This document shows positions 1,861 through 50,243 of a stretch of 64,000 nucleotides of DNA, piece by piece (the first letter of the stretch is position 1; each line of letters begins with the position of its first letter). The translations under genes were made by a program, and so were the position numbers. The stretch comes from Sulfitobacter donghicola DSW-25 = KCTC 12864 = JCM 14565 (lineage in GTDB: Bacteria > Pseudomonadota > Alphaproteobacteria > Rhodobacterales > Rhodobacteraceae), in the NCBI RefSeq assembly GCF_000622405.1, contig NZ_JASF01000005.1, positions 2,728,001 to 2,792,000 on the forward strand, given 5' to 3'. The notes beneath the pieces were generated by a model. That model saw only the letters and a program-made list of their open reading frames with translations. It searched no databases and was not told where the DNA came from.

Positions 1861-1870
1861 GGCGATTGAC

Positions 1871-8250: not shown

Positions 8251-9204
8251 TCAAATATTTGTGAATTCTGGGAAATTTTTCGCGACAGCTGTGTCAAACG
8301 GGAAGCTGGTGCAAAGCAGGTGATTTTGCGCGTTCAGGCGCGCGCGCAGCTCGGGCGTGTCGGCGCAAACCTCTTGGAAAAACGCCTTTAGGCCTGCTTT
8401 GCCATCCTCGTCATAAAGCATGTTGAATAGCTCGTGCATGGTGATTCCGCCGCGTTCACGGCTGCGCGCAGGGCCAAGATCAGCGCGGTAAGAGCCTTCA
8501 TTCAGGCGATATTCAAAATGGCTGTACCACGTGTCCCAATCCAAAGCGTGGAAATGGGCGAGGTGAAGATCGGGCAGCTCGACATGGTTTGGATTTGTCT
8601 CGCCCTTCACAAAAGCATTGTGGATACGGAATTTGAGCCCCTCAATCCCCGTGCGCACAAATAATTTGCCAGCAATATGGCTCAGGAAACCGCCCTTTAG
8701 ATGTTCGCCGTAAGTTGGGTACAGCGCCGAGACGACCTGTTCGCGTTTGCCGTTCGCTGGCACAAAGGTTTTAAAGGCAGCTTCGACCTGAGGATCACAC
8801 CCCGCAAGCAGCTCCATCGGGCGCGCGCGTGCGCATTGGGTGCCGTCAGGCAGAGCGGCCAGCGTTTCAGCAATGGGCGTATCTGCAACCAGAAACTCAT
8901 CCACATCCATGTGGATCAGCCAATCAACCTCGTCACGCGCCCGCTTATAGGCGCGGGTGGCGTTAAGGGTCTGGCGCGGCTGGTGCATATCGGGGCGGTC
9001 GCCGTTTAGGCGTTTCCAATAGCCCTCATCACAGCGCACAACACGGGTTTTGGGGTGGTTGCGCAGGGCTTCCTGCGCCTCGGGGTTTGGCGCATCGAGA
9101 TAGATATAGATGCGATGCGCGCCCAGCTCGATGTGATAGGCGGCAAAGCGCAGGATCGCGGCGGTATCCGCTTTGATCGTAGCGACGATGCCCCATTTAG
9201 TCAT
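8251..9204 (-). CDS. Glycosyltransferase family 2-like protein (PF13704 type)
   Basis: 317 residues. The N-terminus MTKWGIVATIKADTAAILRF resembles GT-A enzymes of the PF13704/GT92-like group. The metal/nucleotide-sugar motif is WLIHMDVDEFLV near residue 98, and HLAHFHALDWDTWY near residue 220 matches the family's downstream 'LNHY' region only loosely. The N(D/G)CxDGTD motif seen in the cluster at 39520-45353 is absent, so it belongs to a different branch. It starts one base after the prfC stop and is almost certainly co-transcribed. Donor and acceptor are unknown. Confidence 0.75.
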   Translation of the reverse strand: MTKWGIVATIKADTAAILRFAAYHIELGAHRIYIYLDAPNPEAQEALRNHPKTRVVRCDEGYWKRLNGDRPDMHQPRQTLNATRAYKRARDEVDWLIHMDVDEFLVADTPIAETLAALPDGTQCARARPMELLAGCDPQVEAAFKTFVPANGKREQVVSALYPTYGEHLKGGFLSHIAGKLFVRTGIEGLKFRIHNAFVKGETNPNHVELPDLHLAHFHALDWDTWYSHFEYRLNEGSYRADLGPARSRERGGITMHELFNMLYDEDGKAGLKAFFQEVCADTPELRARLNAQNHLLCTSFPFDTAVAKNFPEFTNI

Positions 9205-9205
9205 A

Positions 9206-10825
9206 TTACACCATCATCTCTTTGGTGGCTGTTAGTTTTACATCGGGATAGTCGCGATCAACGCGATCAATGTCCCACTGTAGGCGGGTCAGATAGACGA
9301 TGTCGCCATCGTGGTCATAGGCGATGTGCTGTTTGTTGGCGTCCGTGAATTTATCGACAGCGGCCTTGTCCCCGCTCACCCAACGGGCCGAGGTGAACTG
9401 CGATTGCTCAAACCGTACGGGCAGGCCGTATTCCAGCTCGATCCGGCTGGCGAGGACTTCGAACTGCAATTGGCCAACCACACCCACGACAAAGCCAGAG
9501 CCGATGGAGGGTTTGAACACCTTAGCAGCGCCTTCTTCGGCGAACTGCATCAGGGCTTTTTCAAGGTGTTTTGATTTCAGCGGGTCGCCTGCGCGCACGC
9601 CTTGCAACAGTTCGGGCGCAAAAGAGGGGATTCCGGTCACGCGGATTGCTTCGCCTTCGGTCAGCGTATCGCCGATGCGCAGCTGCCCGTGGTTGGGAAT
9701 GCCGATGATGTCGCCTGCCCATGCTTCCTCGGCCAGCTCACGGTCAGAGGCAAGGAACATGACGGGGTTTGTGACGCTCATCGGTTTCTTGGTGCGCACA
9801 TGGGTCAGTTTCATACCGCGGGTGAAGTGCCCTGACGCAAGGCGCACAAAGGCCACGCGGTCGCGGTGTTTGGGGTCCATATTCGCCTGAACCTTGAAAA
9901 CAAATCCGGCGACTTTCTTTTCCTCGGGCGCGATCTGGCGCGGTTGCGCTTTTTGCACCTGCGGCTCTGGGCCATAGGTGGCGATACCGTCCATTAGTTC
10001 CTTAACGCCGAATGAGTTGATCGCAGAGCCGAACCAGATCGGCGTCAAAGACCCCTCAGCCATCAGCTCGGCGTCTAGGGGCGGCATCAATTCGCGCACC
10101 ATCTCTAGGTCTTCTTTCAGCTTTTCCAACAGCTCGGCTGGCACATGTTCGGCCAGTTTCGGATCATCCAGCCCTTCGATGCTGATGCTTTCGGCGACTT
10201 TGTTGCGGTCTGCACGGTCCATTAGCTCCAGACGATCGCGCAGGATGTCGTAACAGCCGATAAAATCGCGGCCTACGCCGATTGGCCAGCTGGCTGGGGT
10301 CACATCAATGGCGAGGTTCTCTTGGATCTCGTCAATGATCTCAAACACATCGCGGCTTTCGCGGTCCATCTTGTTACAAAATGTCAGGATGGGCAGGTCG
10401 CGCATGCGGCAAACTTCGAACAGCTTTTGCGTCTGGCTTTCCACACCTTTCGCGCCGTCAATCACCATCACGGCGGCATCCACAGCCGTCAGGGTGCGGT
10501 AGGTATCTTCGGAGAAATCCGAGTGACCAGGCGTGTCGACGAGGTTAAAGCGATAGTTGATTTCGCTGCCCTGATAGTCAAACGACATGGCCGATGCCGA
10601 GACCGAGATGCCACGATCCTTTTCCATCGCCATAAAGTCGGAACGGGTGCGCCGCGCTTCGCCTTTTGCACGGACCTGACCCGCCATTTGGATCGCGCCG
10701 CCAAACAACAGGAACTTTTCAGTCAATGTCGTCTTCCCCGCATCGGGGTGGCTGATGATCGCAAAAGTACGGCGGCGCGCAATTTCTGGCGGCAGTTCGG
10801 GGCGATTTGTGTTGTTGTCCAGCAT
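9206..10825 (-). CDS. prfC: Peptide chain release factor 3
   Basis: 539-residue translational GTPase that recycles RF1/RF2 from the ribosome after peptide release. The start at 10825 (MLDNNTNRPELPPEIARRR) matches the usual RF3 N-terminus. The frame extends 17 codons upstream but that part looks unrelated. GTPase motifs are ISHPDAGKTTLTEKF (G1), DTPGHSDF (G3) and FCNKMDRE (G4). GIPNHGQLRIGDTL in the second domain and PSIGSGFVVGVVGQLQFEVL in the third are characteristic of RF3 and separate it from EF-G. Length is normal. Confidence 0.95.
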   Translation of the reverse strand: MLDNNTNRPELPPEIARRRTFAIISHPDAGKTTLTEKFLLFGGAIQMAGQVRAKGEARRTRSDFMAMEKDRGISVSASAMSFDYQGSEINYRFNLVDTPGHSDFSEDTYRTLTAVDAAVMVIDGAKGVESQTQKLFEVCRMRDLPILTFCNKMDRESRDVFEIIDEIQENLAIDVTPASWPIGVGRDFIGCYDILRDRLELMDRADRNKVAESISIEGLDDPKLAEHVPAELLEKLKEDLEMVRELMPPLDAELMAEGSLTPIWFGSAINSFGVKELMDGIATYGPEPQVQKAQPRQIAPEEKKVAGFVFKVQANMDPKHRDRVAFVRLASGHFTRGMKLTHVRTKKPMSVTNPVMFLASDRELAEEAWAGDIIGIPNHGQLRIGDTLTEGEAIRVTGIPSFAPELLQGVRAGDPLKSKHLEKALMQFAEEGAAKVFKPSIGSGFVVGVVGQLQFEVLASRIELEYGLPVRFEQSQFTSARWVSGDKAAVDKFTDANKQHIAYDHDGDIVYLTRLQWDIDRVDRDYPDVKLTATKEMMV

Positions 10826-10930
10826 GTTGCGGTGCGATCCTGATGGTGATGTGCCTAGGTTGTGCGGAACGCTCAAACGTAAGGCTATGTTGGGGCGTAC
10901 ACATACCCTACAGGGCAGCTAAGGCAAGTC

Positions 10931-11941
10931 TCAGCGGCTAGATGCTTTTTTGAGCAAGCCAGCGGCATCTGGACGATCCAGCAGACCTTCCTGAACGTCC
11001 AGCCCTGCATGGGGCAGGTCGGAATGGCCGGGCACATAGTTGCCAAGGCTTTCAGACAGTTCTTCGGGCAGGACAGAGCGCGTTCGGCTATCAATCAACA
11101 TGCTTTCGGCGGCAATGCCTTCGGCATAGATGATCTGGTGGCTATCAAACAGCAGTTGGAAATAGTCGACAAAGCCGCCTTCGGCTACTGTGACAGTATC
11201 GCCATTCACCAAATGGCGCGCTTTGACCAGCAGTTCGGAACGCCCTGCGCCCAATTCATCGGTACGTTGATAGATGAACAGGCGGTGATCGGGGCTGACC
11301 AACAGGTCAGCCGTGTTATTGAGCGCGCCCGCCGCAATACGGATCGGGGCGAATTCGCCGACCGCGCGGGTGGTGGTGGTGCCGATCCAGCGCAGGGTTT
11401 GTACACCGTCATCGCGTGTTAGGATGCGGTCTCCTACGGTTAGGTCTTCTACAGGGCGTTGCGCACCAGATGCTAACGTGACGTTTGTACCTCTGGTAAA
11501 GCTGACACAGGCGACTTGGGCGAACTTGGAAAGGGCTGCTTCGCGGTCAACGCCAACAAGGCGGTATTCGGTTTTTGAACTCAGCTCGTTGAAGGGGAGC
11601 AGGTAAATCTCGGCAACATCGCCTTGCTCATCCACTTCGACAAGGATCAGAGCGTCCGAAATACTGCCATCGGGCGACATAAACGTGACCGCGCTATCCA
11701 GATGGACGATCGCCTCATGGGTGCCGACATTGCTGTCATAGCCAACCCGAAAACTGGCATCGCTTTTGGCGACCAAGGAGAGGCGTTGAGGTTCTGATGC
11801 AAATTCCAACTCATAGACATCGTCAAGGATCAGCTCGCTCGCGAATGAGATCGCATCCCCCATATTCGCACCATCTGTAGCGCGAAATTGGCTTGCGGCG
11901 TAAACGGGTACGCTTTGCGAAGAGAGGGAGCCTGTGGACAT
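10931..11941 (-). CDS. Hint-domain protein with Ser at the expected nucleophile position
   Basis: About 336 residues from the ATG at 11941, preceded by a weak AAGG. An in-frame ATG at 11983 would add 14 residues. The N-terminal ~140 residues form the short beta-rich region common before Hint domains in roseobacters. The Hint domain starts near residue 145 (ACVSFTRGT), followed by RPVEDLTVGDRILTRDDG and LLVSPDHRLFI with the block B His. Family members usually read CFTPGT. Here the residue before FTxGT is Ser147 and a Cys sits two positions earlier. The region after the Hint core ends without an obvious extein. It may self-process or be inactive. Function unknown. Confidence 0.8.
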   Translation of the reverse strand: MSTGSLSSQSVPVYAASQFRATDGANMGDAISFASELILDDVYELEFASEPQRLSLVAKSDASFRVGYDSNVGTHEAIVHLDSAVTFMSPDGSISDALILVEVDEQGDVAEIYLLPFNELSSKTEYRLVGVDREAALSKFAQVACVSFTRGTNVTLASGAQRPVEDLTVGDRILTRDDGVQTLRWIGTTTTRAVGEFAPIRIAAGALNNTADLLVSPDHRLFIYQRTDELGAGRSELLVKARHLVNGDTVTVAEGGFVDYFQLLFDSHQIIYAEGIAAESMLIDSRTRSVLPEELSESLGNYVPGHSDLPHAGLDVQEGLLDRPDAAGLLKKASSR

Positions 11942-12874: not shown

Positions 12875-13996
12875 ATGGCTGAGAAATTCTCACTCAAGGA
12901 TCACCTGTTCAACGATCAAACCGTTGCGCGTTTGGCTGGCGAATTTGCCGCTGGCATCGCGGGGTTTGACGCTGATCGGTTTGCGGCCGAGGCCTTGGCA
13001 GGCTTCCCCGAGCGGGAATTGATGGCGCGTATGGAATGGATGGCTGATTGCCTTGAGGGGCAATTGGCGTCCGACTTCCCTGCGATGGCAGACCAGTTGC
13101 AGGCGGCATTGCCACCGCGGTTGGATGTGAGCAAAACGGATGATGATTTTGGCCATTTCATCCATGCCATGCCGGGAATTTTGGCCGTGCGCCATGGGCT
13201 TGAAACGGACCGCGCGCGGGCGATGACGTTGCTCTATGAAGCGACGCAGCGCTTTTCGATGGAGTTTTATATCCGCGCCTTTATCAACCGGTGGCCAGAT
13301 GAAACGATGGCCCAATTGGCCGACTGGTCGGGCGATAAAAACTATCACGTTCGCCGATTGGTGAGCGAGGGCACGCGGCCGAGGTTGCCTTGGGCGCAGA
13401 ATGTGACGTTGACCCACGATCAAACGCTGCCTTTGCTTGATCGGCTGTATGCTGATCCCACGCGCTATGTCACACGGTCGGTGGCCAACCACCTGAATGA
13501 CCTGAGCAAGATTGTTCCAGATGAGGTGTTGGCGCGGTTTGAGCGTTGGCAAGATGAGGGGCGCCAAAGCGCTGATGAGCTGGCTTGGATGCGCCGCCAT
13601 GCCCTGCGGACGTTGATCAAACAGGGGCATGAGGGCGCTATGGCGGCATTGGGGTACCGCGCTGATGCGCCAGTGACAGCTCAGATTTTGCTGGGGCAGA
13701 ACACGGTCAAGATCGACGATGCTTTGGCCTTTGACGTTGTGCTGAACAGCACCGAGAGCGCGCCCGTTCTTGTAGATTACAGAGTGGATTTCATGCGCGC
13801 GGGCGGAAAACGCGCTGAAAAAGTGTTCAAACTGAAGGTCGCCGAGGTCAAGGCGGGGAAGCCGCTCAAGATCAAAAAATCCCATCGTTTCAAAGGGAAC
13901 GCAACGACGTTTCGCTTGTTTGAGGGGCTGCATAGGATTACCGTGCAGGTGAATGGCCGCGATGTGGCAACGGCATCTTTTGATCTGGTGACATAA
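12875..13996 (+). CDS. DNA alkylation repair protein, AlkC-like
   Basis: 373 residues. The N-terminal two thirds are alpha-helical HEAT-like repeats with typical AlkC/AlkD segments: RFSMEFYIRAFINRWPDE, SGDKNYHVRRLVSEGTRPRLPW, and a repeat containing DPTRYVTRSVANHLNDLSK. These proteins excise N3/N7-alkylated purines without base flipping. The C-terminal ~100 residues (from about 275) look like an Ig-like beta domain, as found in AlkC proteins. It begins 16 nt after the SDR stop and is probably co-transcribed. Activity is inferred from the family. Confidence 0.85.
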   Translation: MAEKFSLKDHLFNDQTVARLAGEFAAGIAGFDADRFAAEALAGFPERELMARMEWMADCLEGQLASDFPAMADQLQAALPPRLDVSKTDDDFGHFIHAMPGILAVRHGLETDRARAMTLLYEATQRFSMEFYIRAFINRWPDETMAQLADWSGDKNYHVRRLVSEGTRPRLPWAQNVTLTHDQTLPLLDRLYADPTRYVTRSVANHLNDLSKIVPDEVLARFERWQDEGRQSADELAWMRRHALRTLIKQGHEGAMAALGYRADAPVTAQILLGQNTVKIDDALAFDVVLNSTESAPVLVDYRVDFMRAGGKRAEKVFKLKVAEVKAGKPLKIKKSHRFKGNATTFRLFEGLHRITVQVNGRDVATASFDLVT

Positions 13997-14092: not shown

Positions 14093-15448
14093 ATGCAACC
14101 CGTAATCCTGATCGCCACTTTTGGCCTTATCATCCTTGCTTCTTTATTGGCCGCGCCGCGCAGCGCCAGTGTGGAAGGCTTTTTTGGCGGGCGAGGAGAG
14201 CAAGGGCGCAACCCTGGTTTATGGGTGTTGGTGCTAAGCCAGGTCACAACTTGGATTTTTGCGCGCAGCCTGATGAACGCCGCGATCCTTGGATATTATT
14301 ACGGCATGGCAGGTACCTTGGCCTATGCAGCCTATTACGGGTCTTTCCTGACAGGCGGTTTTATCGTTGGGCGCTTGCGTGAAGGGAAGGCGACCTCGGT
14401 TCAGGATTGGCTGGGCGCGCGTTTTGGCGCGGTAGGCAATGGGTGCTATAACTTTGTGATCGCGCTGCGATTGCTCTCCGAAGTATTTGCGAATCTGATC
14501 GTCGTTGGTTTGATTTTTAATGCAGTTTTGGAAGGTAGCGGCACAACAGCCATCTGGATTGTCGCCATTCTGGGGCTGGCCTATTCCGCTTGGGGCGGGT
14601 TGAGCGCGGCTTTGCGAACGGATGTTGTGCAAATGGTTGTGTTCATTGGTGTATTTGGCATCGCCTTTGTTGCTCTGGTGACCAGCAGCGCGTTTGATTT
14701 GGGCGCTGTTATCACTTCTTCTGGTACGGCGGGCAGCTATAATGGCTGGGTTTTGCTGGCTGTGGCTGGCTTGCAGGTGTTCAGCTATCCCGCCCATGAT
14801 CCTGTAATGATGGATCGCGGGTTTATCGCGAGCGAGCGTGTCACACAGGCCTCTTTCCAGCACGCCTTTTGGATCAGCACCCTGTGTATCATCGGATTTG
14901 GCTTTTTCGGTATTCAGGCGGGGCTGGTTGGCGCCAGCTATGAGGGCCAGTTGATCGGCACTTGGGCAGAGATGTTCCCGTCGTGGATCTTTAGCTTGTT
15001 GATGATCTCGCTTTTGGTTTCTGCGCTTAGCACGCTGGATTCCGCGCTATCCTCTGCGGCGCGTTTGGTGGTCGAAGAGGGCGGCCTGCCGCGCACTTTG
15101 ACAGCGGGGCGTCTGGTGATGGTTGTCTTTATGCTGGCGGGAACGTTGCTGACCCTTTGGGGGAATGCCACGTTGTTTGATGCAGTCGCAGTTAGCGGCA
15201 CCGCGTCGATGTTCCTGACGCCTGTGTTGATTGTCGGGCTGGTGATGGGGCGCCAGATTGCCTTGTGGAGCTACCTTGTCGCCTTTGGTGCAGCCATTGC
15301 CGGTGCGTTTATCTATTTTGCGCGCGGTTGGGATAGCGTGGCGGCATGGCTCATTGAGGGGCATAAATACGAGCAGCTTTTGGTGATTTGCATCTGCGTT
15401 CTTGTCGCAGGCTTTGCCGCGGTGCTTGCAGGGGCGCGCCGGCACTGA
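14093..15448 (+). CDS. Sodium:solute symporter family protein
   Basis: 451-residue inner-membrane protein with about 12-13 hydrophobic helices. The architecture is that of the SSS (SLC5-like) family: an early VTTWIFARSLMNAAILGYYYG segment, AYSAWGGLSAALRTDVVQ in the fifth-helix region, YPAHDPVMMDRG, and SALSTLDSALSSAARLVVEE near residue 310, the Ser-rich sodium-site helix. GAGGTC precedes the ATG. The substrate cannot be read from sequence. The ABC ATPase gene follows after 38 nt, which is an unusual pairing because two different transporter classes are involved. Confidence 0.85.
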   Translation: MQPVILIATFGLIILASLLAAPRSASVEGFFGGRGEQGRNPGLWVLVLSQVTTWIFARSLMNAAILGYYYGMAGTLAYAAYYGSFLTGGFIVGRLREGKATSVQDWLGARFGAVGNGCYNFVIALRLLSEVFANLIVVGLIFNAVLEGSGTTAIWIVAILGLAYSAWGGLSAALRTDVVQMVVFIGVFGIAFVALVTSSAFDLGAVITSSGTAGSYNGWVLLAVAGLQVFSYPAHDPVMMDRGFIASERVTQASFQHAFWISTLCIIGFGFFGIQAGLVGASYEGQLIGTWAEMFPSWIFSLLMISLLVSALSTLDSALSSAARLVVEEGGLPRTLTAGRLVMVVFMLAGTLLTLWGNATLFDAVAVSGTASMFLTPVLIVGLVMGRQIALWSYLVAFGAAIAGAFIYFARGWDSVAAWLIEGHKYEQLLVICICVLVAGFAAVLAGARRH

Positions 15449-15486
15449 TAGCTGCTATCCGACAGAAAACATCGGATAAGCCAGCC

Positions 15487-16572
15487 GTGCAAACAGAGAC
15501 ACCTCGTTTAGAAATCCGCAACCTCAAGCGCAGCTTTGAAGGCCGCGCAGTTGTGGATGATGTGAGCCTGAAGATCATGCCAGGGCAGGTGACCTGCCTT
15601 TTGGGGCCTTCGGGCTGCGGTAAATCGACGACTTTGCGCATGATCGCAGGGGTCGAGATGCAGGATAGCGGCTCGATCCATGTGGATGGGAAACTGATCT
15701 GCGATACGATCTTTCGTATCCCACCAGAACGGCGCGAAATCGGTCTGATGTTTCAGGACTTTGCGCTATTTCCCCACCTTTCGGTGGCCGACAATGTGGC
15801 CTATGGCCTGCGCGGCACAAGGGCAGAGAAACGCGAGCGGGTAAAGGAACTGTTAGAGCGCGTGGATTTGCTGCGCTTTATCGATGGCTATCCGCACCAG
15901 CTATCGGGGGGCGAGCAACAGCGTGTGGCCTTGGCCCGTGCCTTGGCCCCCAAACCACGGATCATGCTGATGGATGAACCGTTCTCGGGGTTGGATAACC
16001 GCCTGCGTGACGGGATCCGTGATGAAACGCTGAGCATCCTCAAAGAGCAAGATACAGCGGTGCTGCTGGTCACCCATGAACCCGATGAAGCCATGCGCAT
16101 GGCTGATGAAATTGCCCTGATGCGTGACGGGCAGATTGTGCAGCAGGGCGCGCCCTATAACGTCTATACCCGCCCGATTGACCGCGCGGCTGTATCGTTC
16201 TTTTCCGATGCGAACGTTATCCGTGCCGAAGTATCAGGCGCACTGGCCCATACTGCCTTTGGCCGCTTCCTTGCACCAGGGGTGCCAGATGGTACTGCCG
16301 TGGATATCGTTTTCCGCCCCCAACACGTGCGCATTGATTTTGACCGTGCGGGTAAGGGGCCATTGCCTACAGCGGCAGATGGGACGCCCGCGCGCGCCAT
16401 CGTGAAACGGGCACGTTTTATGGGCAACGAAAGCTTGGTCGAGTTCGAGATGGATCACGACGGATCGATCCTGAAGGCTACTGTACCGAATGTATTCATG
16501 CCCTCTGAGGGTACAGTGATGTGGCTGACAATCCGGCGCGACAAGTGTTTCGTGTTCGATGTGAAAACCTAA
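15487..16572 (+). CDS. ABC transporter ATP-binding protein (FbpC/PotA-like), no permease nearby
   Basis: 361 residues from a GTG at 15487, just ahead of the ABC core. The frame is open further upstream, but that would overlap the symporter gene. Walker A GPSGCGKST is at residues 40-48, the Q-loop is in LMFQDFALFPHLSV, the signature is LSGGEQQRVALARAL and Walker B is IMLMDEPFSGLD. A C-terminal ~110-residue TOBE-like region (IVFRPQHVRI) marks an importer ATPase of the iron/polyamine/thiamine type. No permease or binding protein is present within several kb, so it is either a lone subunit serving a remote permease or has another role with the Lin0512 genes. Confidence 0.88.
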   Translation: MQTETPRLEIRNLKRSFEGRAVVDDVSLKIMPGQVTCLLGPSGCGKSTTLRMIAGVEMQDSGSIHVDGKLICDTIFRIPPERREIGLMFQDFALFPHLSVADNVAYGLRGTRAEKRERVKELLERVDLLRFIDGYPHQLSGGEQQRVALARALAPKPRIMLMDEPFSGLDNRLRDGIRDETLSILKEQDTAVLLVTHEPDEAMRMADEIALMRDGQIVQQGAPYNVYTRPIDRAAVSFFSDANVIRAEVSGALAHTAFGRFLAPGVPDGTAVDIVFRPQHVRIDFDRAGKGPLPTAADGTPARAIVKRARFMGNESLVEFEMDHDGSILKATVPNVFMPSEGTVMWLTIRRDKCFVFDVKT

Positions 16573-32220: not shown

Positions 32221-32423
32221 ATCGGGGTTTTGACAGGCTGACAGGTGAGGTCAAGATCGCGTGTCGGGATACCATCGCGAAAACAACAAGAAACAAGGAG
32301 AAAAGGCAGGGCCAGCCACCCAGTTGATCGTTTCACTCTGCGAAAGGGCGCCACGTCAAAACAACTATTTCTTGTTTGGCTTCAATCACTGGTTAGGCTG
32401 GTGTTCAGGTGGAGGAGATAGAT
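32221..32423. other. Intergenic region between alr and the hydrolase gene
   Basis: About 200 nt separating divergent genes. A clear GGAGGAG for the plus-strand hydrolase lies at 32411-32417. I see no convincing promoter hexamers, hairpin or small ORF that I would stand behind. Confidence 0.4.
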
Positions 32424-33734
32424 ATGAAGATAATTTTAAACACATTGGTACCAGCAGCCTTAATGACAGCAGGAGCCGCCATGGCAAATCCGATTGATAC
32501 CCAGTTGCCAAGTGCGCCAGAACTGGCCGCTTATGGCGCATTGCCAGTGGGCGTGCGCCAGCTTGAGATGGTTCATGCAGATCAGATCGATATTCTGGCC
32601 ATTGATCCCGCAGCCGAAAAGCCCGAGGCCTTTCCACGTTATGATCGCCCTCTTACCGTTGAAATGTGGTATCCTGCGGCAGAGGGGGCCAGTGGGTCAA
32701 CCGAGCTAAAGGCCTATCTGCGCGATGGGACGACGGAAGTCACACTCACCGGTAAAGCGATGCGCGATGCGGCCCCTGCGGTGACGGATACACCTTATCC
32801 GCTGGTTTTGATCAGCCATGGTTATCCGGGTAACCGATTTTTGCTGTCGCATCTGGCCGAAAATCTGGCCTCAAAGGGGTATGTTGTGGCGTCAATCGAC
32901 CACACAGACAGCACCTATCGCACGCAAGCGGCCTTTGGCTCGACGTTGGTGAACCGCTCGCTCGATCAGTTGTTTGTGTTAGAGGAAATGGCGGGCAAAG
33001 CTGCCGAAGGGGGCGAGTTTGCGGGGTTGTATGACGCCGATAACACAGGGCTGATCGGCTATTCTATGGGCGGTTATGGCGCAATAATCACCGCAGGTGG
33101 CGGCGTGACCGAAGCATCGGTTGCCTATGGCTGGGGCGGGCCGCACGGCACATTAGGCATTCACCAAGCAGGATCAGACACTCATAACGCGCTGCCCGAT
33201 GCACGGATCAAAACGGCTGTGGCCTTTGGCCCTTGGGGGATGAACACGGGGTTCTGGGATGCGGCAGGCCTTGCTGGCGTGCAAATCCCTATGCTGTTCA
33301 TTGCGGGCTCACAGGATGACGTATCGCTATATGAAAACGGTGTGCGCGCGATTTGGGAAAACGTGAGCAATGTGGAAACCGCGCTGCTAACCTATGAAAA
33401 CGGTGGCCATAACGCTGGCGCGCCGATGCCTGCGCCTGCCGAGAGCTATTATTTCAACAAAGACAAGGGCTTTGATATTTCCGAACACTACACCGATCCA
33501 GTGTGGGACACTGCGCGCATGAATAACATCGCCCAGCATTTTGTGACCGCATGGCTGGATCAACGCCTAAAGGCGGATGCCGAGGCAGGCAGCTATCTGG
33601 AGCTGGTTGAGGATTCGAATGCCGGTGTTTGGTCGGTAAACGAAGACGGCACGGAAAAAGAAGACCACAGCTATTGGAAGGGCTTTGCCAAAGGCACGGC
33701 AAAGGGTTTGAAATATGAGGTGAAGAAGCCTTAA
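32424..33734 (+). CDS. Secreted alpha/beta hydrolase (dienelactone hydrolase/PAF-acetylhydrolase-like)
   Basis: 436 residues. A signal peptide, MKIILNTLVPAALMTAG...AMA, predicts export to the periplasm. Fold landmarks: oxyanion region LVLISHGYPGNRF near residue 135, nucleophile elbow LIGYSMGGYG with Ser, then FIAGSQDDVSLYENG carrying the likely acid and YENGGHNAGAP the His. The pattern fits the large family of predicted dienelactone or lipid ester hydrolases. The substrate is not readable from sequence. GGAGGAG lies 7 nt before the ATG. A bidirectional terminator follows. Confidence 0.85.
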   Translation: MKIILNTLVPAALMTAGAAMANPIDTQLPSAPELAAYGALPVGVRQLEMVHADQIDILAIDPAAEKPEAFPRYDRPLTVEMWYPAAEGASGSTELKAYLRDGTTEVTLTGKAMRDAAPAVTDTPYPLVLISHGYPGNRFLLSHLAENLASKGYVVASIDHTDSTYRTQAAFGSTLVNRSLDQLFVLEEMAGKAAEGGEFAGLYDADNTGLIGYSMGGYGAIITAGGGVTEASVAYGWGGPHGTLGIHQAGSDTHNALPDARIKTAVAFGPWGMNTGFWDAAGLAGVQIPMLFIAGSQDDVSLYENGVRAIWENVSNVETALLTYENGGHNAGAPMPAPAESYYFNKDKGFDISEHYTDPVWDTARMNNIAQHFVTAWLDQRLKADAEAGSYLELVEDSNAGVWSVNEDGTEKEDHSYWKGFAKGTAKGLKYEVKKP

Positions 33735-38481: not shown

Positions 38482-39420
38482 CTAGTCGTCTTCGCCGCTT
38501 GTCGTTTTGGTTTCGCTGGCCAGTCGGCGTGCAAAACGTGGTGCATGCATGCGGGATGTTACATTGTGCGCGAGGGCAACGGCCAATGTGTCGCGCTCTT
38601 CCGCGTCTAATGCGGCAAGAAGGTTGCGCAGGTAGGGCGTGTGAGACCGCCGCGCCCGCATCATCTTTGCAAAGCTGAGATCGTCCAAACGATCATCGGC
38701 GATCGCCAATAATAGGGGTACCAGTTGGCCCATTTCCAACAGATCGGTCTGGATCGCATTTCCCATGAAACGCAAGCGCAGCTTGGTCGTATTGGGGCGT
38801 GTAAACAGGGCGGCATGCATCGCATCCAGCTGTTCGCGCGGGTCATAAACCACATAAGCCATCGAGGCTGCGTCCAACATGTCTGGCGCATACCCAAAGC
38901 GCGAGGAAAAATCGGTCCGGCGCATTTCTAAAAAGCGGTCGTCCCATTCTGTTATGCGCGGATCAAGGCTGGCTTGGGGTTGGATGGCCAACACGCGCGC
39001 CTCTGGTGCCGAAACCGAGAAGGCCGCGGCAGCATAGGCACATGGACCAGCGCCATAGAAAATGATTTCATCGAATTCGTCAAAGAACCCGTCATCAATC
39101 AAGCGGTCAAAATAGCCAAATACGGCTGGGTCGCGAAACCATGTATCGCCGTTTGAGGCGATGCAGAGGTTGGACCAATCGTGGTCTTTCATCATTTCCC
39201 ACCCGAGCGGCTGGGCAAGGGGGGATAGGGCTGGAATGCCCTGAAGGGTTTCAAACGTCACCAACAGGGTGGACGAGCGTTCAATAAAAGCAGCGTAATG
39301 CCGCTTGCCGAGGTCTTCAAAATAGCCGTCTTCATCGCAGAGCTGTTCTACGGCATCCAGCCAGTCGGCTTTTTTCATACCGGCAAGCGATGTTTCAAAG
39401 TTCAGGCTGTTATCGGCCAT
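38482..39420 (-). CDS. Conserved protein of unknown function
   Basis: 312 residues, no signal peptide. The central part IIFYGAGPCAYAAAAFSV, followed by ARVLAIQPQASLDPRITEWD, has an alpha/beta-hydrolase-like rhythm with Cys at the elbow (GAGPCAY), but a full catalytic triad is not evident. The C-terminal third is helical and basic (FAKMMRARRSHTPYLRNLLA). Homologues may carry a PAPS reductase label, yet no ECGxH or CxxC motif of that family is present. It lies 33 nt upstream of the pyrC start on the same strand, so it may lead that operon. Confidence 0.7.
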   Translation of the reverse strand: MADNSLNFETSLAGMKKADWLDAVEQLCDEDGYFEDLGKRHYAAFIERSSTLLVTFETLQGIPALSPLAQPLGWEMMKDHDWSNLCIASNGDTWFRDPAVFGYFDRLIDDGFFDEFDEIIFYGAGPCAYAAAAFSVSAPEARVLAIQPQASLDPRITEWDDRFLEMRRTDFSSRFGYAPDMLDAASMAYVVYDPREQLDAMHAALFTRPNTTKLRLRFMGNAIQTDLLEMGQLVPLLLAIADDRLDDLSFAKMMRARRSHTPYLRNLLAALDAEERDTLAVALAHNVTSRMHAPRFARRLASETKTTSGEDD

Positions 39421-39519: not shown

Positions 39520-40575
39520 TTACGGCTTCTTTTTATTTGCCCGCCGCGCGCGGTTGGCAAAATGGAACATAAATTGGGCTGCTTCTCTGGGAACGGGCTG
39601 TGACGGCGGCGTCATGAGCAGGCGCCCGAACAATGCGCGAAATGGCTCTTTTAGCATCAAGGTTTCGAATTGCTTCTTGCGCCATGCGACCGCGCTATTG
39701 TGCAAGTTTGACAGGGTTTCATCAGATAACATGGCTTGCAAAGCCTCAGAACGGGGTGCGGCAAGGCTCTGGATTGAGGTGTCTTCATTGGTGTTAAAGT
39801 TTCGCTCGACCCAATAGTCCAAGCCAAGGATGTGGTCACTATGAACCGCGCGCCCGCGATCTGCCTTGACCACATAGCTTTCTAATGCACCCAAAGGGTA
39901 GTGGTTGAGCTGAACAAGCCCGTAGTTGTCTTTGCTGAAGTTGGAAAAGATGCGTTTGTTTACGAATTGCTCGGGCAGGGGCTCTCCATTGCTGTCAAAC
40001 CAACGCGCATCCGCTTTCTTTTTCTCGTTAAGGTCACGGGGGCGATGGACGCCAGGTTTTTTATAGGTGCCATCGTTGCGGTACAGGGTTTTGAACATGG
40101 CAGAACGCCATGGCCAGTGCATGATCGCGGGCGCTGCTTTGGTAAAAGTATCCAGAACTGGCGCAGGAGAGTAACGGACCTGTCCATTTGCACCAAACAA
40201 CCGCCACGTAAGGGTGATCGCCGTGGCATCAGGAATAGCTGCGTGTAGCGCTGGTAAAGTGTGATCACCGCAATGGATGTTTACAAATTCATCCACATCC
40301 AGCGGTAAAATCCAGTCTGCTTTGCGGGTGAGTTTATGTTTGGCGGCGGTTTTTAGGGCCGTGAATTGGATGCCGCCATTGTCATAGGGGCCTTCATTTC
40401 GGACATGGGTGACGAGGCCCATCTTTTCCAATTGGTCCAGCATGGTATCGGTGCCATCCTGACAATCGTTTGAAAAGATCAGGAATTTGTCAAAACCCAC
40501 GGCCTGATGATGGGCCAGCCATTCCAGCAGGAATGCGCCCTCATTGCGGACACATAGAATTGCAAGGTGAGACAT
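39520..40575 (-). CDS. Glycosyltransferase family 2 (PF13704 type)
   Basis: 351 residues from the ATG at 40575. GT-A features: AILCVRNEGAFLLEWLAHHQ, FLIFSNDCQDGTDTMLDQLE, the metal motif PLDVDEFVNIHCGD, then TWRLFGANGQ and LVQLNHYPLGALESYVVKAD. Arg/Lys-rich at the C-terminus. It starts one base after the FkbM methyltransferase stop and is the last gene of a tightly packed cluster. Donor and acceptor are unknown; surface polysaccharide or lipid is likely. Confidence 0.85.
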   Translation of the reverse strand: MSHLAILCVRNEGAFLLEWLAHHQAVGFDKFLIFSNDCQDGTDTMLDQLEKMGLVTHVRNEGPYDNGGIQFTALKTAAKHKLTRKADWILPLDVDEFVNIHCGDHTLPALHAAIPDATAITLTWRLFGANGQVRYSPAPVLDTFTKAAPAIMHWPWRSAMFKTLYRNDGTYKKPGVHRPRDLNEKKKADARWFDSNGEPLPEQFVNKRIFSNFSKDNYGLVQLNHYPLGALESYVVKADRGRAVHSDHILGLDYWVERNFNTNEDTSIQSLAAPRSEALQAMLSDETLSNLHNSAVAWRKKQFETLMLKEPFRALFGRLLMTPPSQPVPREAAQFMFHFANRARRANKKKP

Positions 40576-40576
40576 C

Positions 40577-41275
40577 TTACCAAGCGCGCCGGAAACAGAC
40601 GACTTTATGCGTGGAGCCGCGCGCGTAATAGGCAAGGCCCGCGTCCATCATCGCCTTGAACACAGCATTCACGCCTTCGGGGCCGATATATTGGGGGTGC
40701 AATTCGATCATCGCGCCGCGCAGGCCTGTAAGGTCTAGCTGGGGCAGGAGGGTGGCCTCGGCCCCTTCAATATCTGCGATCAGGATGTTTGCGCCAATGG
40801 ATTTAAAGGTCTGTTTCGCATTCAGGACCTCTACCTTTACCTTTTCGACCTTTTCAGGCGTGTCCGAATCCAGCGGCTCCATCGAGGAGGACAGCAGGTT
40901 GTTGCGCACATAGAAATCTGCGCTGCCCTTGCGCGGGCCAAGAAGGGCGTTGGTCACATGGGCATTTGTCAGCTCGTTTGCCTCGTGAACCGAGCGGATA
41001 TAGGGGATGAGAGCGGGATTTGCCTCAAACGCATGCACTGCTTTGATCTTGCGGCGCGTGGCGACCAGAGTGGACATAAAGCCAATGCCAGCGCCCAATT
41101 CGATGACCGTGTCTTCGTCGCGGACCAGTTTGAGCACGCATTGCGCTTCTTTCGCCTCATAGCGGTTTTCGCGCAGGGCTGCGCGGAGCTGTCCGGTGAT
41201 GAAATGCCCGTCTTTTGGGAACTTCATGCCTTTTGACATGACATAGGGATCACGTGTTTGGATGGTGCCGTCCAT
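40577..41275 (-). CDS. FkbM family methyltransferase
   Basis: 232 residues. The SAM-binding core is TVIELGAGIGFMSTLVA near residue 58, then VHAFEANPALIPYIRSVHEAN and ILIADIEGAEATLLPQLDL, the FkbM pattern with DIEGAE as acidic motif. FkbM enzymes commonly O-methylate sugars or lipids. It abuts both glycosyltransferase neighbours (0 and 1 nt gaps), which suggests action on the same glycan. Cytoplasmic. Confidence 0.88.
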   Translation of the reverse strand: MDGTIQTRDPYVMSKGMKFPKDGHFITGQLRAALRENRYEAKEAQCVLKLVRDEDTVIELGAGIGFMSTLVATRRKIKAVHAFEANPALIPYIRSVHEANELTNAHVTNALLGPRKGSADFYVRNNLLSSSMEPLDSDTPEKVEKVKVEVLNAKQTFKSIGANILIADIEGAEATLLPQLDLTGLRGAMIELHPQYIGPEGVNAVFKAMMDAGLAYYARGSTHKVVCFRRAW

Positions 41276-43675
41276 TTAACTCTCCATATCCAGCGCAAGC
41301 GAATAGGCCACGCGCTCGGTCTCGGTTAGTTTGACCTCTAGGGCATCGCGGTAGAGGTCTGCGAATTCGGGGTTTTTATGTAGCTCTTCGGCTTTGGCGC
41401 GGTGCCATTCCAGACCCTTCTCATGCCAGCCGCGTAGAATATCGTCTTGCATCAGGCGGTCATATTCGGCCTGAAGGCGGGGAAGGTTACGTTTGATGGT
41501 AATGTCGCGGAAATCGGACCAATCCATGCGGATCCAATAGTTGATCCCGATTGAGCGGTCGACGTGCAAGGCGCGGCCGCGCTGGCGTTTGATCAAAAAG
41601 CTTTCGGCGGATCGCAACGCATAGTGGTTGAGCTGCAATAGATCATAGCCAATGGTCTTTTTAGAGGAGCGCCACCCGTTTGTGGCAACCTCTTTGGTCA
41701 TGTCCTTACCTGATCCGTTGACCCATTTAACTTTGTTTTCAAACCCTTCTTCTAGCTTGTTAGGGCGGTGGCAGGAAATTTTCTCATAGGCGCCGATGTT
41801 TTTGAACATCGTTTTGAACCCCCAAACCGTGTGTGGTTTCGGGCAGAATTTGGGGGCGCAGGTGTCAAATTGATCAATGACCAGTTCATCGTTCAATTTG
41901 GTCACGCCGTTATGGCCGAATAGGCGCCATGTCATGGCGATGTTTGTGGCGTCTGGAACCGCATCGAGGAAATCCTGAACCGTTCCGTTTCCACAGCGGA
42001 CGTTCATGAACTCATCCACATCGATGTGGATGATCCATTCGGCGTTCATAATCACCGGCTCTTTTAGCGATTGGTTTAGCGCATATTGCTGGGGCGAATT
42101 GCCTTTCCAGTCATCGTTGTTGCGGTGTTGCAAAACGCCCATTTCCTGAAGGCGATCCAGAATTTCAGAAGTGCCGTCGTCGCAACCGTTTGTATAAATT
42201 AGGAAATTATCCACCCCCATGGCACGGTGATAGGCGACCCATTCCGTGATATAGGGGGCTTCGTTTTTCATGCAGCCCACAATGACATTGCCTGAATTCC
42301 CTTCGGGCAGAACGCGAGGGGTAATTGGGGTATAGGCTGCGGCCAGCTCTTCTTCGTTGACCGAACCCATTTTGTTATGGGGGGCAAAGGAGGAGCTGCG
42401 CAGTTTTTCAAAATTCTGCACGGCGAGCGGGGGCATGATTTTGCGTGCGGTTTCGGTGAGACCATCGGGGGCGTCATCTTCTGCGCGCGGTGCTGCTTCT
42501 TGCAAGGCGGGAGCCTCAGCGGCGCTTGAGACCGTACCTGCCAGCCGCGCCAGATCGGCGGCGCGTTTTTGTTGCTCTTCGCGCGTGGCTTTGTCGATCC
42601 GCCACATAAAGCCCAGCAAATACTGCGAAGGGCGGAACCCGAACATGGGATCTGCCTCGCTCCAGCTTCCTTTTGCGCGGGGTGCTTTAAAGGTATCGGC
42701 GTTTAGGCCTTTGTGCTCTTTCAGTAGGGTTTTCAAAGCGGGGGCAAAGTGTTTGGTGATCGGGTGAAGGGAAGCCAGATCAATCGGCGGCCCGTCCACG
42801 GCGATATCCTGTATAAAGCTGCGCCAAAGCTGGCGGGGCAAAATCCGTTGCCTGCTGGCCAGAACTTGCAAGATCAGCGCGTTCATCTGTCTGCCACGGG
42901 CCAAGGTGGCCTCGGGCACGTCAGGTGGCATGGCGATGGCTTCGACCTTGCCGATATTCCCGTCGATCTGGAATGTTTTACAGATGGTTTCGGTGACTTC
43001 GCGGCTTGCAAATTCATCCGCATCGTAACTGTAAAGGTCAACCGAACCCTTGCCAAACACGTCTTCCCAAAACCCGACTAGGGCGGGTAGGTCTAACCAA
43101 TGGTTTGGGGCCTGTGTCTCGGCAAAGACACCAGCCGCCGGATCAATCTGCGGCGTGCGTTTGAGTGCTTCGGCCCACCAATCTGTTCCAACCAGATCAA
43201 GCTCGGCATCCAATGATATTCCGCGACCTTCCAAGATTTGCGATGCATAGCTGCGGGCAAGCATCCGTGTCGGCAGGTCTACATGGGCGATGACACGGAT
43301 GTCTTCGGATAACGGCGATAACATCGCATGCAGGCGCGCGAGCTCGGAGCGCGTGCGCAGGGCGTTTCCGAGTTGGGCGCAGGACAGGATCAATGTGTCA
43401 GGCTTGTGCTGGCCAACTTCGCGTTCAAGATCGTTGATCACGGCGTCCCGTAAAACGGCCTGTTTTTGGGGCGTGATATAGCCGCGATTGAACCGCAGCG
43501 GATCTACGTGGCCCGCATCGGTTGTCGCCATAAACAGGCGGGTGTGGTTTTTGTTCCCAGGGCTGCGGGCGAATAATACGCCTCTGCGGCTAAGCTGTTC
43601 GCGTTTGTCGGCCAGTACGGATTGGATACGTGCGGCGCTGACCTCTTCTGGTCCGATATGTAGATAGATGCGCAT
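41276..43675 (-). CDS. Fusion of a degenerate sulfotransferase-like domain with a GT2 glycosyltransferase
   Basis: 799 residues from the ATG at 43675, which overlaps the upstream sulfotransferase stop by one base. The N-terminal ~390 residues begin MRIYLHIGPEEVSAARIQ and continue SRRGVLFARSPG. This has the layout of sulfotransferases that start 'xxHIGxxKTGTTxIQ', but the PAPS loop is absent. An Ala/Glu/Pro linker follows. GT2 runs about 462-720: CMKNEAPYITEWVAYHRAMG, YTNGCDDGTSEIL, HIDVDEFMN (552-556) and LLQLNHYALRSAESFLIK. The N-terminal half may be a binding or scaffold module. The sulfotransferase relationship is inferred from layout. Confidence 0.8.
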   Translation of the reverse strand: MRIYLHIGPEEVSAARIQSVLADKREQLSRRGVLFARSPGNKNHTRLFMATTDAGHVDPLRFNRGYITPQKQAVLRDAVINDLEREVGQHKPDTLILSCAQLGNALRTRSELARLHAMLSPLSEDIRVIAHVDLPTRMLARSYASQILEGRGISLDAELDLVGTDWWAEALKRTPQIDPAAGVFAETQAPNHWLDLPALVGFWEDVFGKGSVDLYSYDADEFASREVTETICKTFQIDGNIGKVEAIAMPPDVPEATLARGRQMNALILQVLASRQRILPRQLWRSFIQDIAVDGPPIDLASLHPITKHFAPALKTLLKEHKGLNADTFKAPRAKGSWSEADPMFGFRPSQYLLGFMWRIDKATREEQQKRAADLARLAGTVSSAAEAPALQEAAPRAEDDAPDGLTETARKIMPPLAVQNFEKLRSSSFAPHNKMGSVNEEELAAAYTPITPRVLPEGNSGNVIVGCMKNEAPYITEWVAYHRAMGVDNFLIYTNGCDDGTSEILDRLQEMGVLQHRNNDDWKGNSPQQYALNQSLKEPVIMNAEWIIHIDVDEFMNVRCGNGTVQDFLDAVPDATNIAMTWRLFGHNGVTKLNDELVIDQFDTCAPKFCPKPHTVWGFKTMFKNIGAYEKISCHRPNKLEEGFENKVKWVNGSGKDMTKEVATNGWRSSKKTIGYDLLQLNHYALRSAESFLIKRQRGRALHVDRSIGINYWIRMDWSDFRDITIKRNLPRLQAEYDRLMQDDILRGWHEKGLEWHRAKAEELHKNPEFADLYRDALEVKLTETERVAYSLALDMES

Positions 43676-44304
43676 CAGCTTGCCTTGTTTTGCGAATTTG
43701 CGTTGGCTTGGCCCCACCATGGCAATTCGGCGTTTACGTGTTTTGCCACTAGGGCATGGGCGTTTGCATCCGCCACGTCATATTCCATAAACGCTGGATC
43801 ACCAGCAAAGATCGCCTGTAGGTGGGCGTAATGCCCATCGATCCATTGAATGCGTTCACGGCTGGTTTCGCCGTAGCCTTCGGGCAGACCGGGAATGTCA
43901 GAGGCAGGCAGGCGGTCGGTGCCCAGATCGGACCACGCCAGCATGGATTGCGAGACATCCCAGCTATCGCGCCGCGACGCGAGGAAACGCACCTCGGGGT
44001 GGTGTTTGCGTATGGCGTCGATGATCGCAAAATCCATCTGCGGCCAGAGGGATTTCCCATTGCGCAAGCAGCTCAGCTCGGTCACGGCGGTGAAATCCTC
44101 AAAAAGGGCGGCAGGATCACCGCTTTGGAAGTAACCCTGATAGAGAAGATCCGCGACAAAGGCGTTTTTGAGGGATTTTGTTTCGGTTTGGCGGGCGCGG
44201 ATACGGTGATCGGCCACTTTGAAACCTGCGATTTTCAGGGCGCGGGCTAGGGTGGTTGTCCCTGTTTTCGGCAGCCCCAGATTGACGACTTTGAGGGTGC
44301 TCAT
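43675..44304 (-). CDS. Sulfotransferase family protein
   Basis: 209 residues. The 5'-phosphosulfate loop is intact: KVVNLGLPKTGTTTLARAL at residues 5-23. The 3'-phosphate region is FLASRRDSWDVSQSMLAWSD near residue 108. This fits the small bacterial sulfotransferase group that uses PAPS to sulfate sugars or lipids. It overlaps both neighbours (ATGA with the upstream GT, TGATG with the downstream fusion). Substrate presumably the glycan built by this cluster. Confidence 0.85.
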   Translation of the reverse strand: MSTLKVVNLGLPKTGTTTLARALKIAGFKVADHRIRARQTETKSLKNAFVADLLYQGYFQSGDPAALFEDFTAVTELSCLRNGKSLWPQMDFAIIDAIRKHHPEVRFLASRRDSWDVSQSMLAWSDLGTDRLPASDIPGLPEGYGETSRERIQWIDGHYAHLQAIFAGDPAFMEYDVADANAHALVAKHVNAELPWWGQANANSQNKAS

Positions 44305-45353
44305 AGCGCCTCCTCCAACAGGCCGAGGTCACGCAGCATGGCTTCTTCTTGCGGGGGCAGTTTGGATGCCGAGCGCAGCTGGCTTTGCATGTCGCGGTAT
44401 TCCTGCTGCTCTAGCAGGGCGTCGCGCCGCGCGATATGGGCTTTGACGCAGGCGTCATGGAGGGCGCCGATGTTGCCTTGGCTCTTCAATTTATCCATCT
44501 GCTTTTTCAGGGCAGGGATATAGCGGCTGATTGAGGTATCTTCCCACGCGGGATCATTGCGTTCACGCCAGTAGGTGTCGTCAAACGCGCGGTTTTCGCG
44601 GTTCACATCGCCACGGTCATTCTTCACCAGATAGCTATCAAGGCTGCGCAAGGCATAGTGGTTCAGCGTGGCGAAATTGCGGGATCCCGCCGCAGGAAAG
44701 CGGCGAATGCGGCGCGGGTTTGCGGCCACAAGAAAGCGATGCTGTACCGCACGGCCAGAGCCATCCGTCCAGCTGGGGCGTTGGTTCTTTTTCACTTTGG
44801 GTCGAAAGAACGGTCTATGCGCGCCAAAATACTGCAGGGGGAAATCCTGACGGACCAGCGATTTCACCTCAATCGCCGCTTCGCCGCACCATAGGTCGGG
44901 GTTGTGGCTGTGGGTGAATTGCTCAATCACGGGGCGGTCTTCAAAGCCCTCAATGTCGTTATTGGCAAAGAACTGAAAGTTCAGGCTAATCGTTTGCGGA
45001 TCACCGCAGGCATCGATCAATGCGCCAAAGCTGTGATCGCCCACATGGATATTAGGGAATTCATCAACATCGGCAATCCAGACCCAATCGGCGTTTAGCA
45101 CGATGTCCTGCTTTTTGGCGTCTTTCAGGGCTTCCATCTGGTAATTGCGGCCCTCGGCGGGGTTGGGCAGGTGCGTCACGTGCCCCTGTTCGGCCAGCGC
45201 ATCCAGCAGCGTATCGGTGCCATCGTCGCAATCGTTTGAGTAAAATAGGAAGTCGGTCACGCCAATATTCTGGTGGAAGGCGATCCATTCCAGCAAAAAG
45301 GGACCTTCGTTTTTCACGCAGGTCACAGCGGTTATTCTTAGATCATCAGCCAT
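44301..45353 (-). CDS. Glycosyltransferase family 2 (PF13704 type), first gene of the cluster
   Basis: 350 residues from the ATG at 45353, with GAGGGCG upstream. Motifs: AVTCVKNEGPFLLEWIAFHQ, FLFYSNDCDDGTDTLLDALA, IADVDEFPNIHVGD, and NHYALRSLDSYLVKNDRGD. It is clearly homologous to the GT domains at 39520 and 41276 but not near-identical. The C-terminal ~70 residues are helical and charged. The cluster's promoter should lie in 45354-45598. Confidence 0.85.
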   Translation of the reverse strand: MADDLRITAVTCVKNEGPFLLEWIAFHQNIGVTDFLFYSNDCDDGTDTLLDALAEQGHVTHLPNPAEGRNYQMEALKDAKKQDIVLNADWVWIADVDEFPNIHVGDHSFGALIDACGDPQTISLNFQFFANNDIEGFEDRPVIEQFTHSHNPDLWCGEAAIEVKSLVRQDFPLQYFGAHRPFFRPKVKKNQRPSWTDGSGRAVQHRFLVAANPRRIRRFPAAGSRNFATLNHYALRSLDSYLVKNDRGDVNRENRAFDDTYWRERNDPAWEDTSISRYIPALKKQMDKLKSQGNIGALHDACVKAHIARRDALLEQQEYRDMQSQLRSASKLPPQEEAMLRDLGLLEEAL

Positions 45354-50100: not shown

Positions 50101-50127
50101 AAAAAAAGACCGGGCGCGAGGCCCGGC
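50101..50127 (-). terminator. Intrinsic terminator downstream of lysR
   Basis: On the minus strand CCGGGC-CTCGC-GCCCGG is followed by TCTTTTTTT: a textbook GC stem with T run. It lies about 155 nt after the lysR stop. Confidence 0.88.
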
Positions 50128-50153
50128 CAAGTCCAACAGGGAGGTATAAGGCG

Positions 50154-50243
50154 ATGCGCGCGGGGCGCCTCAATCCTTATATTGTTCAGTTAGGATGCAG
50201 CCTGCACACAATCAAGGCAGATTCTGTTCGAGTCAGCGCATAA
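50154..50243 (+). CDS. Possible 29-residue small ORF
   Basis: The ATG at 50154 has a strong AGGGAGGT about 9 nt upstream and opens 29 codons (MRAGRLNPYIVQ...). The stop TAA falls inside the palindrome at 50236-50254. There is no signal peptide or known motif. It lies antisense to the lysR 3' UTR. The AGGGAGGT may equally be the complement of a functional CCTCCCT in a minus-strand RNA, so coding is unproven. Confidence 0.3.
   Translation: MRAGRLNPYIVQLGCSLHTIKADSVRVSA

Follow-up and report, generated by a model that had tools for sequence, protein, structure and literature searches.

A 64,000-nucleotide stretch of the Sulfitobacter donghicola DSW-25 genome (contig NZ_JASF01000005.1, positions 2,728,001 to 2,792,000; hereafter the window) contains five closely packed genes, g1 to g5, whose order is conserved among roseobacters. 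They encode three GT92-like glycosyltransferase domains, a small sulfotransferase with intact cofactor motifs and an FkbM-family methyltransferase; the central transferase, g3, is fused to a domain with a predicted sulfotransferase fold that has lost the motifs for binding 3'-phosphoadenosine-5'-phosphosulfate (PAPS). The reading developed here is of a largely vertically inherited operon that makes one short sulfated oligosaccharide on a lipid A-core acceptor, with the N-terminal domain of g3 as a binding module. Taken whole, we regard it as evenly poised between right and wrong.

The conserved gene set

The five genes fill positions 39520-45353 of the window, with start codons picked from the sequence alone:

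44301..45353, minus strand: g1, GT92-like glycosyltransferase (PF13704), 350 aa (Pfam)
43675..44304, minus strand: g2, small PAPS sulfotransferase (PF17784) with both cofactor motifs, 209 aa (Pfam)
41276..43675, minus strand: g3, pseudo-sulfotransferase/GT92 fusion, 799 aa (Pfam, predicted fold, homolog alignment)
40577..41275, minus strand: g4, FkbM-family methyltransferase, optional (NCBIfam; 46/78 determinable loci)
39520..40575, minus strand: g5, GT92-like glycosyltransferase (PF13704) (Pfam; 75/76 determinable loci)

The overlap is 4 nt (ATGA) between g1 and g2 and 1 nt (TGATG) between g2 and g3, and the gaps are 0 nt between g3 and g4 and 1 nt between g4 and g5. The coordinates thus bear out the tight array, with overlaps or gaps of at most 1 nt, described in the first-pass annotation, and the Pfam and NCBIfam matches agree with its assignment of the genes to GT2, sulfotransferase and FkbM families, the glycosyltransferases falling in PF13704/GT92. 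The five genes are probably co-transcribed. Between positions 38300 and 45700, three promoters were predicted against a chance mean of 5.1, which is no excess, and 14 terminators against 10.2 (sd 3.6), no more than chance.

Gene content was surveyed in the best 80 of the 254 relatives found with g3 in named genomes, which belong to the Rhodobacteraceae and related genera, some being labelled merely Rhodobacterales or Alphaproteobacteria. The order and strand of every gene found are kept in all 80 loci: vwa and moxR are divergent and are followed by g1, g2, g3, g4, g5, the neighbour hyp312, pyrC, pyrE and dnaB. Among determinable loci, g1 is present in 78/78, g2 in 77/80 and g5 in 75/76, and the neighbours hyp312, moxR and pyrC in 71/76, 74/77 and 73/76, respectively. 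Of 77 pairs, 66 have a g1/g2 overlap of 4 nt; three of the exceptions (L015, L055, L081) are artefactual, g1 being cut or broken there. Between g2 and g3 the overlap is 1 nt in 63 of 77 pairs and 4 nt in another 10. Two loci, L030 and L079, lack a g2 frame between g1 and g3, and in L034 these two genes are separated by 25 nt. The product of g4 matches the FkbM family (TIGR01444) at 56.4 bits (cut-off 37.7), and because the gene is missing from 32 of the 78 determinable loci, methylation would be an accessory step. The methyltransferase was accordingly rejected as a core member, and the earlier suggestion that the set decorates its product with sulfate and methyl groups stands for sulfation by g2, with methylation reduced to an optional addition.

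The g3 profile matches 362 of the 390 genomes of the order, and among the matches listed most are to the transferase half within other proteins. Orthologs of g3 were recognised in 71 genomes, 68 by long profile coverage and three, in pieces, through their neighbourhood. In all, 85 genomes match the g2 profile, of which 69 score more than 265 bits, two about 187 bits and 14 below 33 bits; the genomes in the two weaker groups are all without g3. A strong g2 match is therefore found in 69 of the 71 genomes with g3, the other two lacking it, and in none of the 319 without g3. This co-occurrence, together with the absence of any scatter of the genes among the 80 loci, supports the shared pathway proposed in the first-pass annotation. 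Across the class, the profile of the g3 N-domain matches 10 of 289 genomes, at full length only S. donghicola itself and one congener. The operon thus seems to be characteristic of Rhodobacterales, where part of the order carries it.

Sulfotransferase domains with and without PAPS motifs

The following features distinguish g2 from the N-terminal half of g3:

44254..44283, minus strand: g2 PAPS loop NLGLPKTGTT (alignment)
42683..43675, minus strand: g3 N-domain, aa 1-331, predicted sulfotransferase fold without PAPS motifs
43622..43660, minus strand: g3 degenerate P-loop HIGPEEVSAARIQ, aa 6-18 (compared with HIGxEKTG[TS]xxxQ in four distant homologs)
43247..43285, minus strand: g3 degenerate 3'-phosphate motif, aa 131-143, Arg to Asp133 and Ser to Arg141
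42473..42535, minus strand: g3 inter-domain linker, aa 381-401, low confidence (predicted local distance difference test score below 50)

Judged by its residues, g2 looks like a working PAPS sulfotransferase. It matches PF17784 (Sulfotransfer_4) at 35.2 bits (cut-off 22.8), and at E up to 1 the only other Pfam match is to Sulfotransfer_3, below threshold, with none to Stf0, in a search that did not include a comparison with LpsS. The loop reads LPK[TS]GT in 76 of 77 aligned rows and LPKAGT in the remaining one; the 3'-phosphate pattern, an Arg and a Ser eight apart, is likewise present in 76/77, and R112 and S120 are invariant in a 49-row alignment. The genome has one adenosine-5'-phosphosulfate kinase match, within a 694-residue frame, so PAPS can probably be made by the host. 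Glycosyltransferase operons that include a sulfotransferase are a known kind. In the available part of one account, LpsS of Sinorhizobium meliloti is a lipopolysaccharide sulfotransferase described as belonging to the Stf0 family (PMC12445080). Like LpsS, g2 is an alphaproteobacterial sulfotransferase that would act on a surface glycan, whereas it belongs to Sulfotransfer_4, weakly to Sulfotransfer_3, and lies inside a glycosyltransferase operon.

By structure comparison, the predicted fold of the g3 N-domain is that of a sulfotransferase, with heparan sulfate 3-O- and N-sulfotransferases and the bacterial protein 3rnl among the closest known systems. Residues were counted in 173 distinct g3 homologs (17 duplicate rows set aside). 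None has the loop K[TSAG][GAS]T; the 3'-phosphate Arg place holds Asp in 163, Gly in 5, Glu in 3 and Ala in 2, and the Ser place holds Arg in 159, other residues in 14 and Ser in none. By contrast with the known enzymes, therefore, the PAPS loop is missing from 173/173 and the 3'-phosphate Arg and Ser from all, whereas four distant homologs of the N-domain retain all three features. Pfam searches with 37 aligned N-domain members touched 13 families with one member each (best E 0.018). No Stf0-type name occurs among 50 VIA-align rows of the structure comparison, which excludes nothing.

Because the loop is absent throughout, the g3 N-domain probably does not act as another sulfating enzyme beside g2. 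The earlier description of this half as sulfotransferase-like therefore holds for the predicted fold and fails for a second sulfating activity. That the domain is nonetheless catalytically active, transferring sulfate by way of a PAPS site of unusual form, would fit the kept fold, the presence of the domain across aligned homologs and a Lys at the P-loop place in 1/173, there without the loop; with loop, Arg and Ser in no homolog and all three in the distant relatives, we consider this extremely unlikely. Among open-licence PMC papers searched for and judged by title and abstract, none describes a pseudo-sulfotransferase/GT92 fusion.

Three glycosyltransferases, the proposed pathway and its acceptor

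The transferase half of g3 comprises two mapped features:

41447..42310, minus strand: g3 GT-A/GT92 domain, aa 456-743
42008..42022, minus strand: g3 DVDEF motif, aa 552-556 (homolog alignment)

PF13704 scores are 67.6 bits for g1, 86.4 for g3 and 83.2 for g5 (cut-off 27.5), and PF01697 (GT92) is also above its cut-off in each. The translations carry CVKNE in g1, CMKNE in g3 and CVRNE in g5, CDDGT in g1 and g3 and CQDGT in g5, and DVDEF and LNHY in all three, as the first reading of the motifs had it. DVDE is present in 173/173 distinct g3 homologs and the following F in 172/173, and the g3 C-domain is predicted to combine a GT-A fold with this conserved acidic motif. Its best fold match is the plant galactan synthase GalS1 (8d3t; 15% identity), from which it differs in being fused to a pseudo-sulfotransferase domain.

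In a quick tree of 90 rows, g1, the g3 C-terminal domain and g5 fall into three distinct clades with supports of 100, 97 and 97 (the g1 clade has 16 rows), each spanning genera, so they were not copied from one another recently and appear from sequence to be three long-separated GT92-like lineages. An origin as recent tandem copies was rejected on the same grounds. The g5 clade also takes in single rows from L133, from L136 (both of these at the same chromosomal site) and from L126. Beyond g1, g3 and g5 the genome has six PF13704 matches, of which the tree includes the paralog at window positions 8251-9204 (minus strand). This PF13704/GT92 gene, flanked by DEAD-box helicase and release factor 3 genes, is very distant from g1, g3 and g5 and forms the longest branch.

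We propose that the operon, largely vertically inherited, would assemble a single short oligosaccharide, conserved and sulfated, in the roseobacter cytoplasm. From their presumed donors, g1, g3 and g5 would each add one sugar, g2 would transfer sulfate from PAPS and g4, where present, would O-methylate; export would follow. Because the g3 N-domain keeps a predicted glycan-sulfotransferase fold and has lost the PAPS-holding residues, it most likely serves to bind the acceptor, offering the growing or sulfated chain to the transferase with which it is fused. A bolder and rather tentative version makes g3 a reader-writer, in which the dead domain would recognise the end produced by g2, whether sulfated or ready for sulfation, and license extension, such that sulfation orders assembly; with hyp312, retired modification enzymes would have been reused for glycan binding.

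Lipid A-core, in the style of an outer core, is the most likely acceptor and would need no polymerase or flippase of its own. Lipooligosaccharide (LOS) outer-core loci are typically without both. Lipid A-core is ranked first because glycosyltransferase loci lacking a polymerase or exporter are usual for the LOS outer core and because Wzy_C is unmatched in the genome. The window has 75 open reading frames of at least 150 aa, and none of the 26 proteins scanned with Pfam is a polymerase, flippase or glycan exporter; an ABC ATPase with a TOBE_2 domain (15388-16572) is presumably of the import type. In the available part of the source, the outer-core locus of Acinetobacter baumannii occupies a fixed site between two housekeeping genes and consists mostly of glycosyltransferases, including the PF13704 member GtrOC3 (PMC10327509). 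The roseobacter operon resembles it in its fixed chromosomal site and its predominance of transferases, and outer-core loci in general in its lack of a polymerase or flippase. It differs in that the A. baumannii locus is strain-variable whereas the present gene set is conserved, in that its LOS acceptor is proposed by inference, and in having g2, no sulfotransferase being named for the A. baumannii locus in that part of the account (PMC10327509). The first-pass remark that export genes are missing is correct locally, and their absence is not odd, as the A. baumannii locus is likewise mostly glycosyltransferases and export-type genes occur elsewhere in the genome.

Several points weigh against the lipid A-core reading with a binding role for g3. 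Because sequence searches were unhelpful, the sulfotransferase assignment of the g3 N-domain comes from the predicted fold and distant homologs (E 3e-9 to 8e-17): Pfam returned nothing for the N-half of the window protein, a PDB sequence search with the domain gave a single chance hit (E 0.78) and comparison with the g2 profile showed no relation. The rule naming the PAPS-holding residues is one we assume, and one homolog does carry the P-loop Lys. As three of 80 loci keep g3 without g2, g3 is not strictly dependent on g2, and the Fisher p of about 4e-75 for their co-occurrence is not corrected for ancestry. WaaA-type genes lie elsewhere (2693135 and 1213899) and nothing links the operon to lipid A; the search of the genome for a ligase or polymerase covered Wzy_C, one family of several; and a flippase-family gene (2532706), a Poly_export match (2563989) and a PF13704 gene (2510732) could use the product.

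Since export-type genes exist elsewhere in the genome, the main rival is decoration of an exopolysaccharide or capsule repeat unit made and exported by other genes, which we judge unlikely. The genome has one flippase-family protein (not a specific sign, the family matching 14/14 control genomes), two Poly_export matches, two ABC-2 permease matches and further PF13704 genes. Repeat-unit genes, however, usually differ between strains, whereas this operon is highly conserved and syntenic, and a Wzy_C polymerase was not found in the genome. An interval of about 54 kb (C5:2510732-2564225 of the same genome) holds a PF13704 gene together with a gene of the flippase family and one Poly_export match, and may be an exopolysaccharide locus. 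The few transferases, single sulfotransferase and absence of export genes from the operon would also suit a sulfated glycolipid or other membrane-lipid headgroup in place of part of an LOS or polysaccharide, but the operon has no lipid-specific enzyme and the best fold match of the glycosyltransferase domain is a plant galactan synthase, which makes this alternative improbable.

Roseobacters abound in the sea and on algae, and their surface sugars are poorly mapped. As the operon looks conserved and not strain-variable, one mutant could explain a surface trait common to many genera, and the pseudo-sulfotransferase/transferase fusion offers a well-defined example, open to experiment, of how a modifying enzyme that is dead could find new use in glycan assembly. 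Searches of open-licence PMC papers on the gene set, its Pfam family, LpsS, pseudo-sulfotransferases and a gene transfer agent capsule link found, going by titles and abstracts, nothing on the locus.

The neighbour hyp312, the site in other genomes and further features

38482..39420, minus strand: hyp312, conserved neighbour, predicted alpha/beta-hydrolase fold, possible sixth member

Separated from g5 by 99 nt in the window and conserved nearly as widely as the operon, hyp312 is possibly a sixth pathway member. Structure comparison predicts an alpha/beta-hydrolase fold, in common with Gap2/Asp2 and the capsule O-acetyltransferase 6yuv. In contrast to these, it has Gly125 at the expected nucleophile Ser place in 53/53 rows (place set by eye against GASMG relatives) and so lacks the nucleophile of a serine hydrolase or acyltransferase. 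Six relatives in the loci of other genomes comprise three with GASMG and its Ser, one with GAGMG, one with GAEAG and one without the pattern. The fold match to Gap2/Asp2 would allow the operon to glycosylate a protein with hyp312 as an Asp2/Gap2-like partner, but six further rows, including unrelated hydrolases, lie within 1 Z of that match, the nucleophile place is Gly throughout and the conserved gene order tracked here includes no target-protein gene; we hold this to be very improbable.

Among 17 hand-chosen stretches around a transferase match in genomes without g3 (L120-L136), the match adjoins moxR/vwa or pyrC/pyrE/dnaB in six, four of which have both flanks; in the remaining 11 neither flank lies within the stretch. 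What the site holds without g3 includes other GT92-like genes and genes resembling hydrolases; L120 has a sulfotransferase-like protein there and a weak match to a methyltransferase. The site appears to be an old glycan locus whose content comes in at least two types. The L120 protein (1293-3188, minus strand; 631 aa) has an N-terminal PAPS-type loop, KTGTTSLQ, falls short of the Sulfotransfer_4 threshold (19.9 bits, cut-off 22.8) and also has a match resembling hyp312; it is thus a fusion of sulfotransferase-like and hydrolase-like parts located at this chromosomal site. In L133, from a genome without g3, a 777-aa protein (8875-11208, minus strand) joins a g3-like transferase half to a different N-half which, inspected by eye, looks like a second, degenerate GT92-like domain.

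Elsewhere in the window, two sizeable open reading frames on the plus strand (12875-13996 and 14093-15448) have no Pfam match at E up to 0.001. A PET-hydrolase-like alpha/beta hydrolase (PF12740, 46.9 bits) is encoded at 32409-33734 (plus strand), and the singlet oxygen resistance small RNA SorX is matched at 50102-50166 (minus strand; Rfam 55.4 bits, gathering 46.6), between purL and a lysR-type gene.

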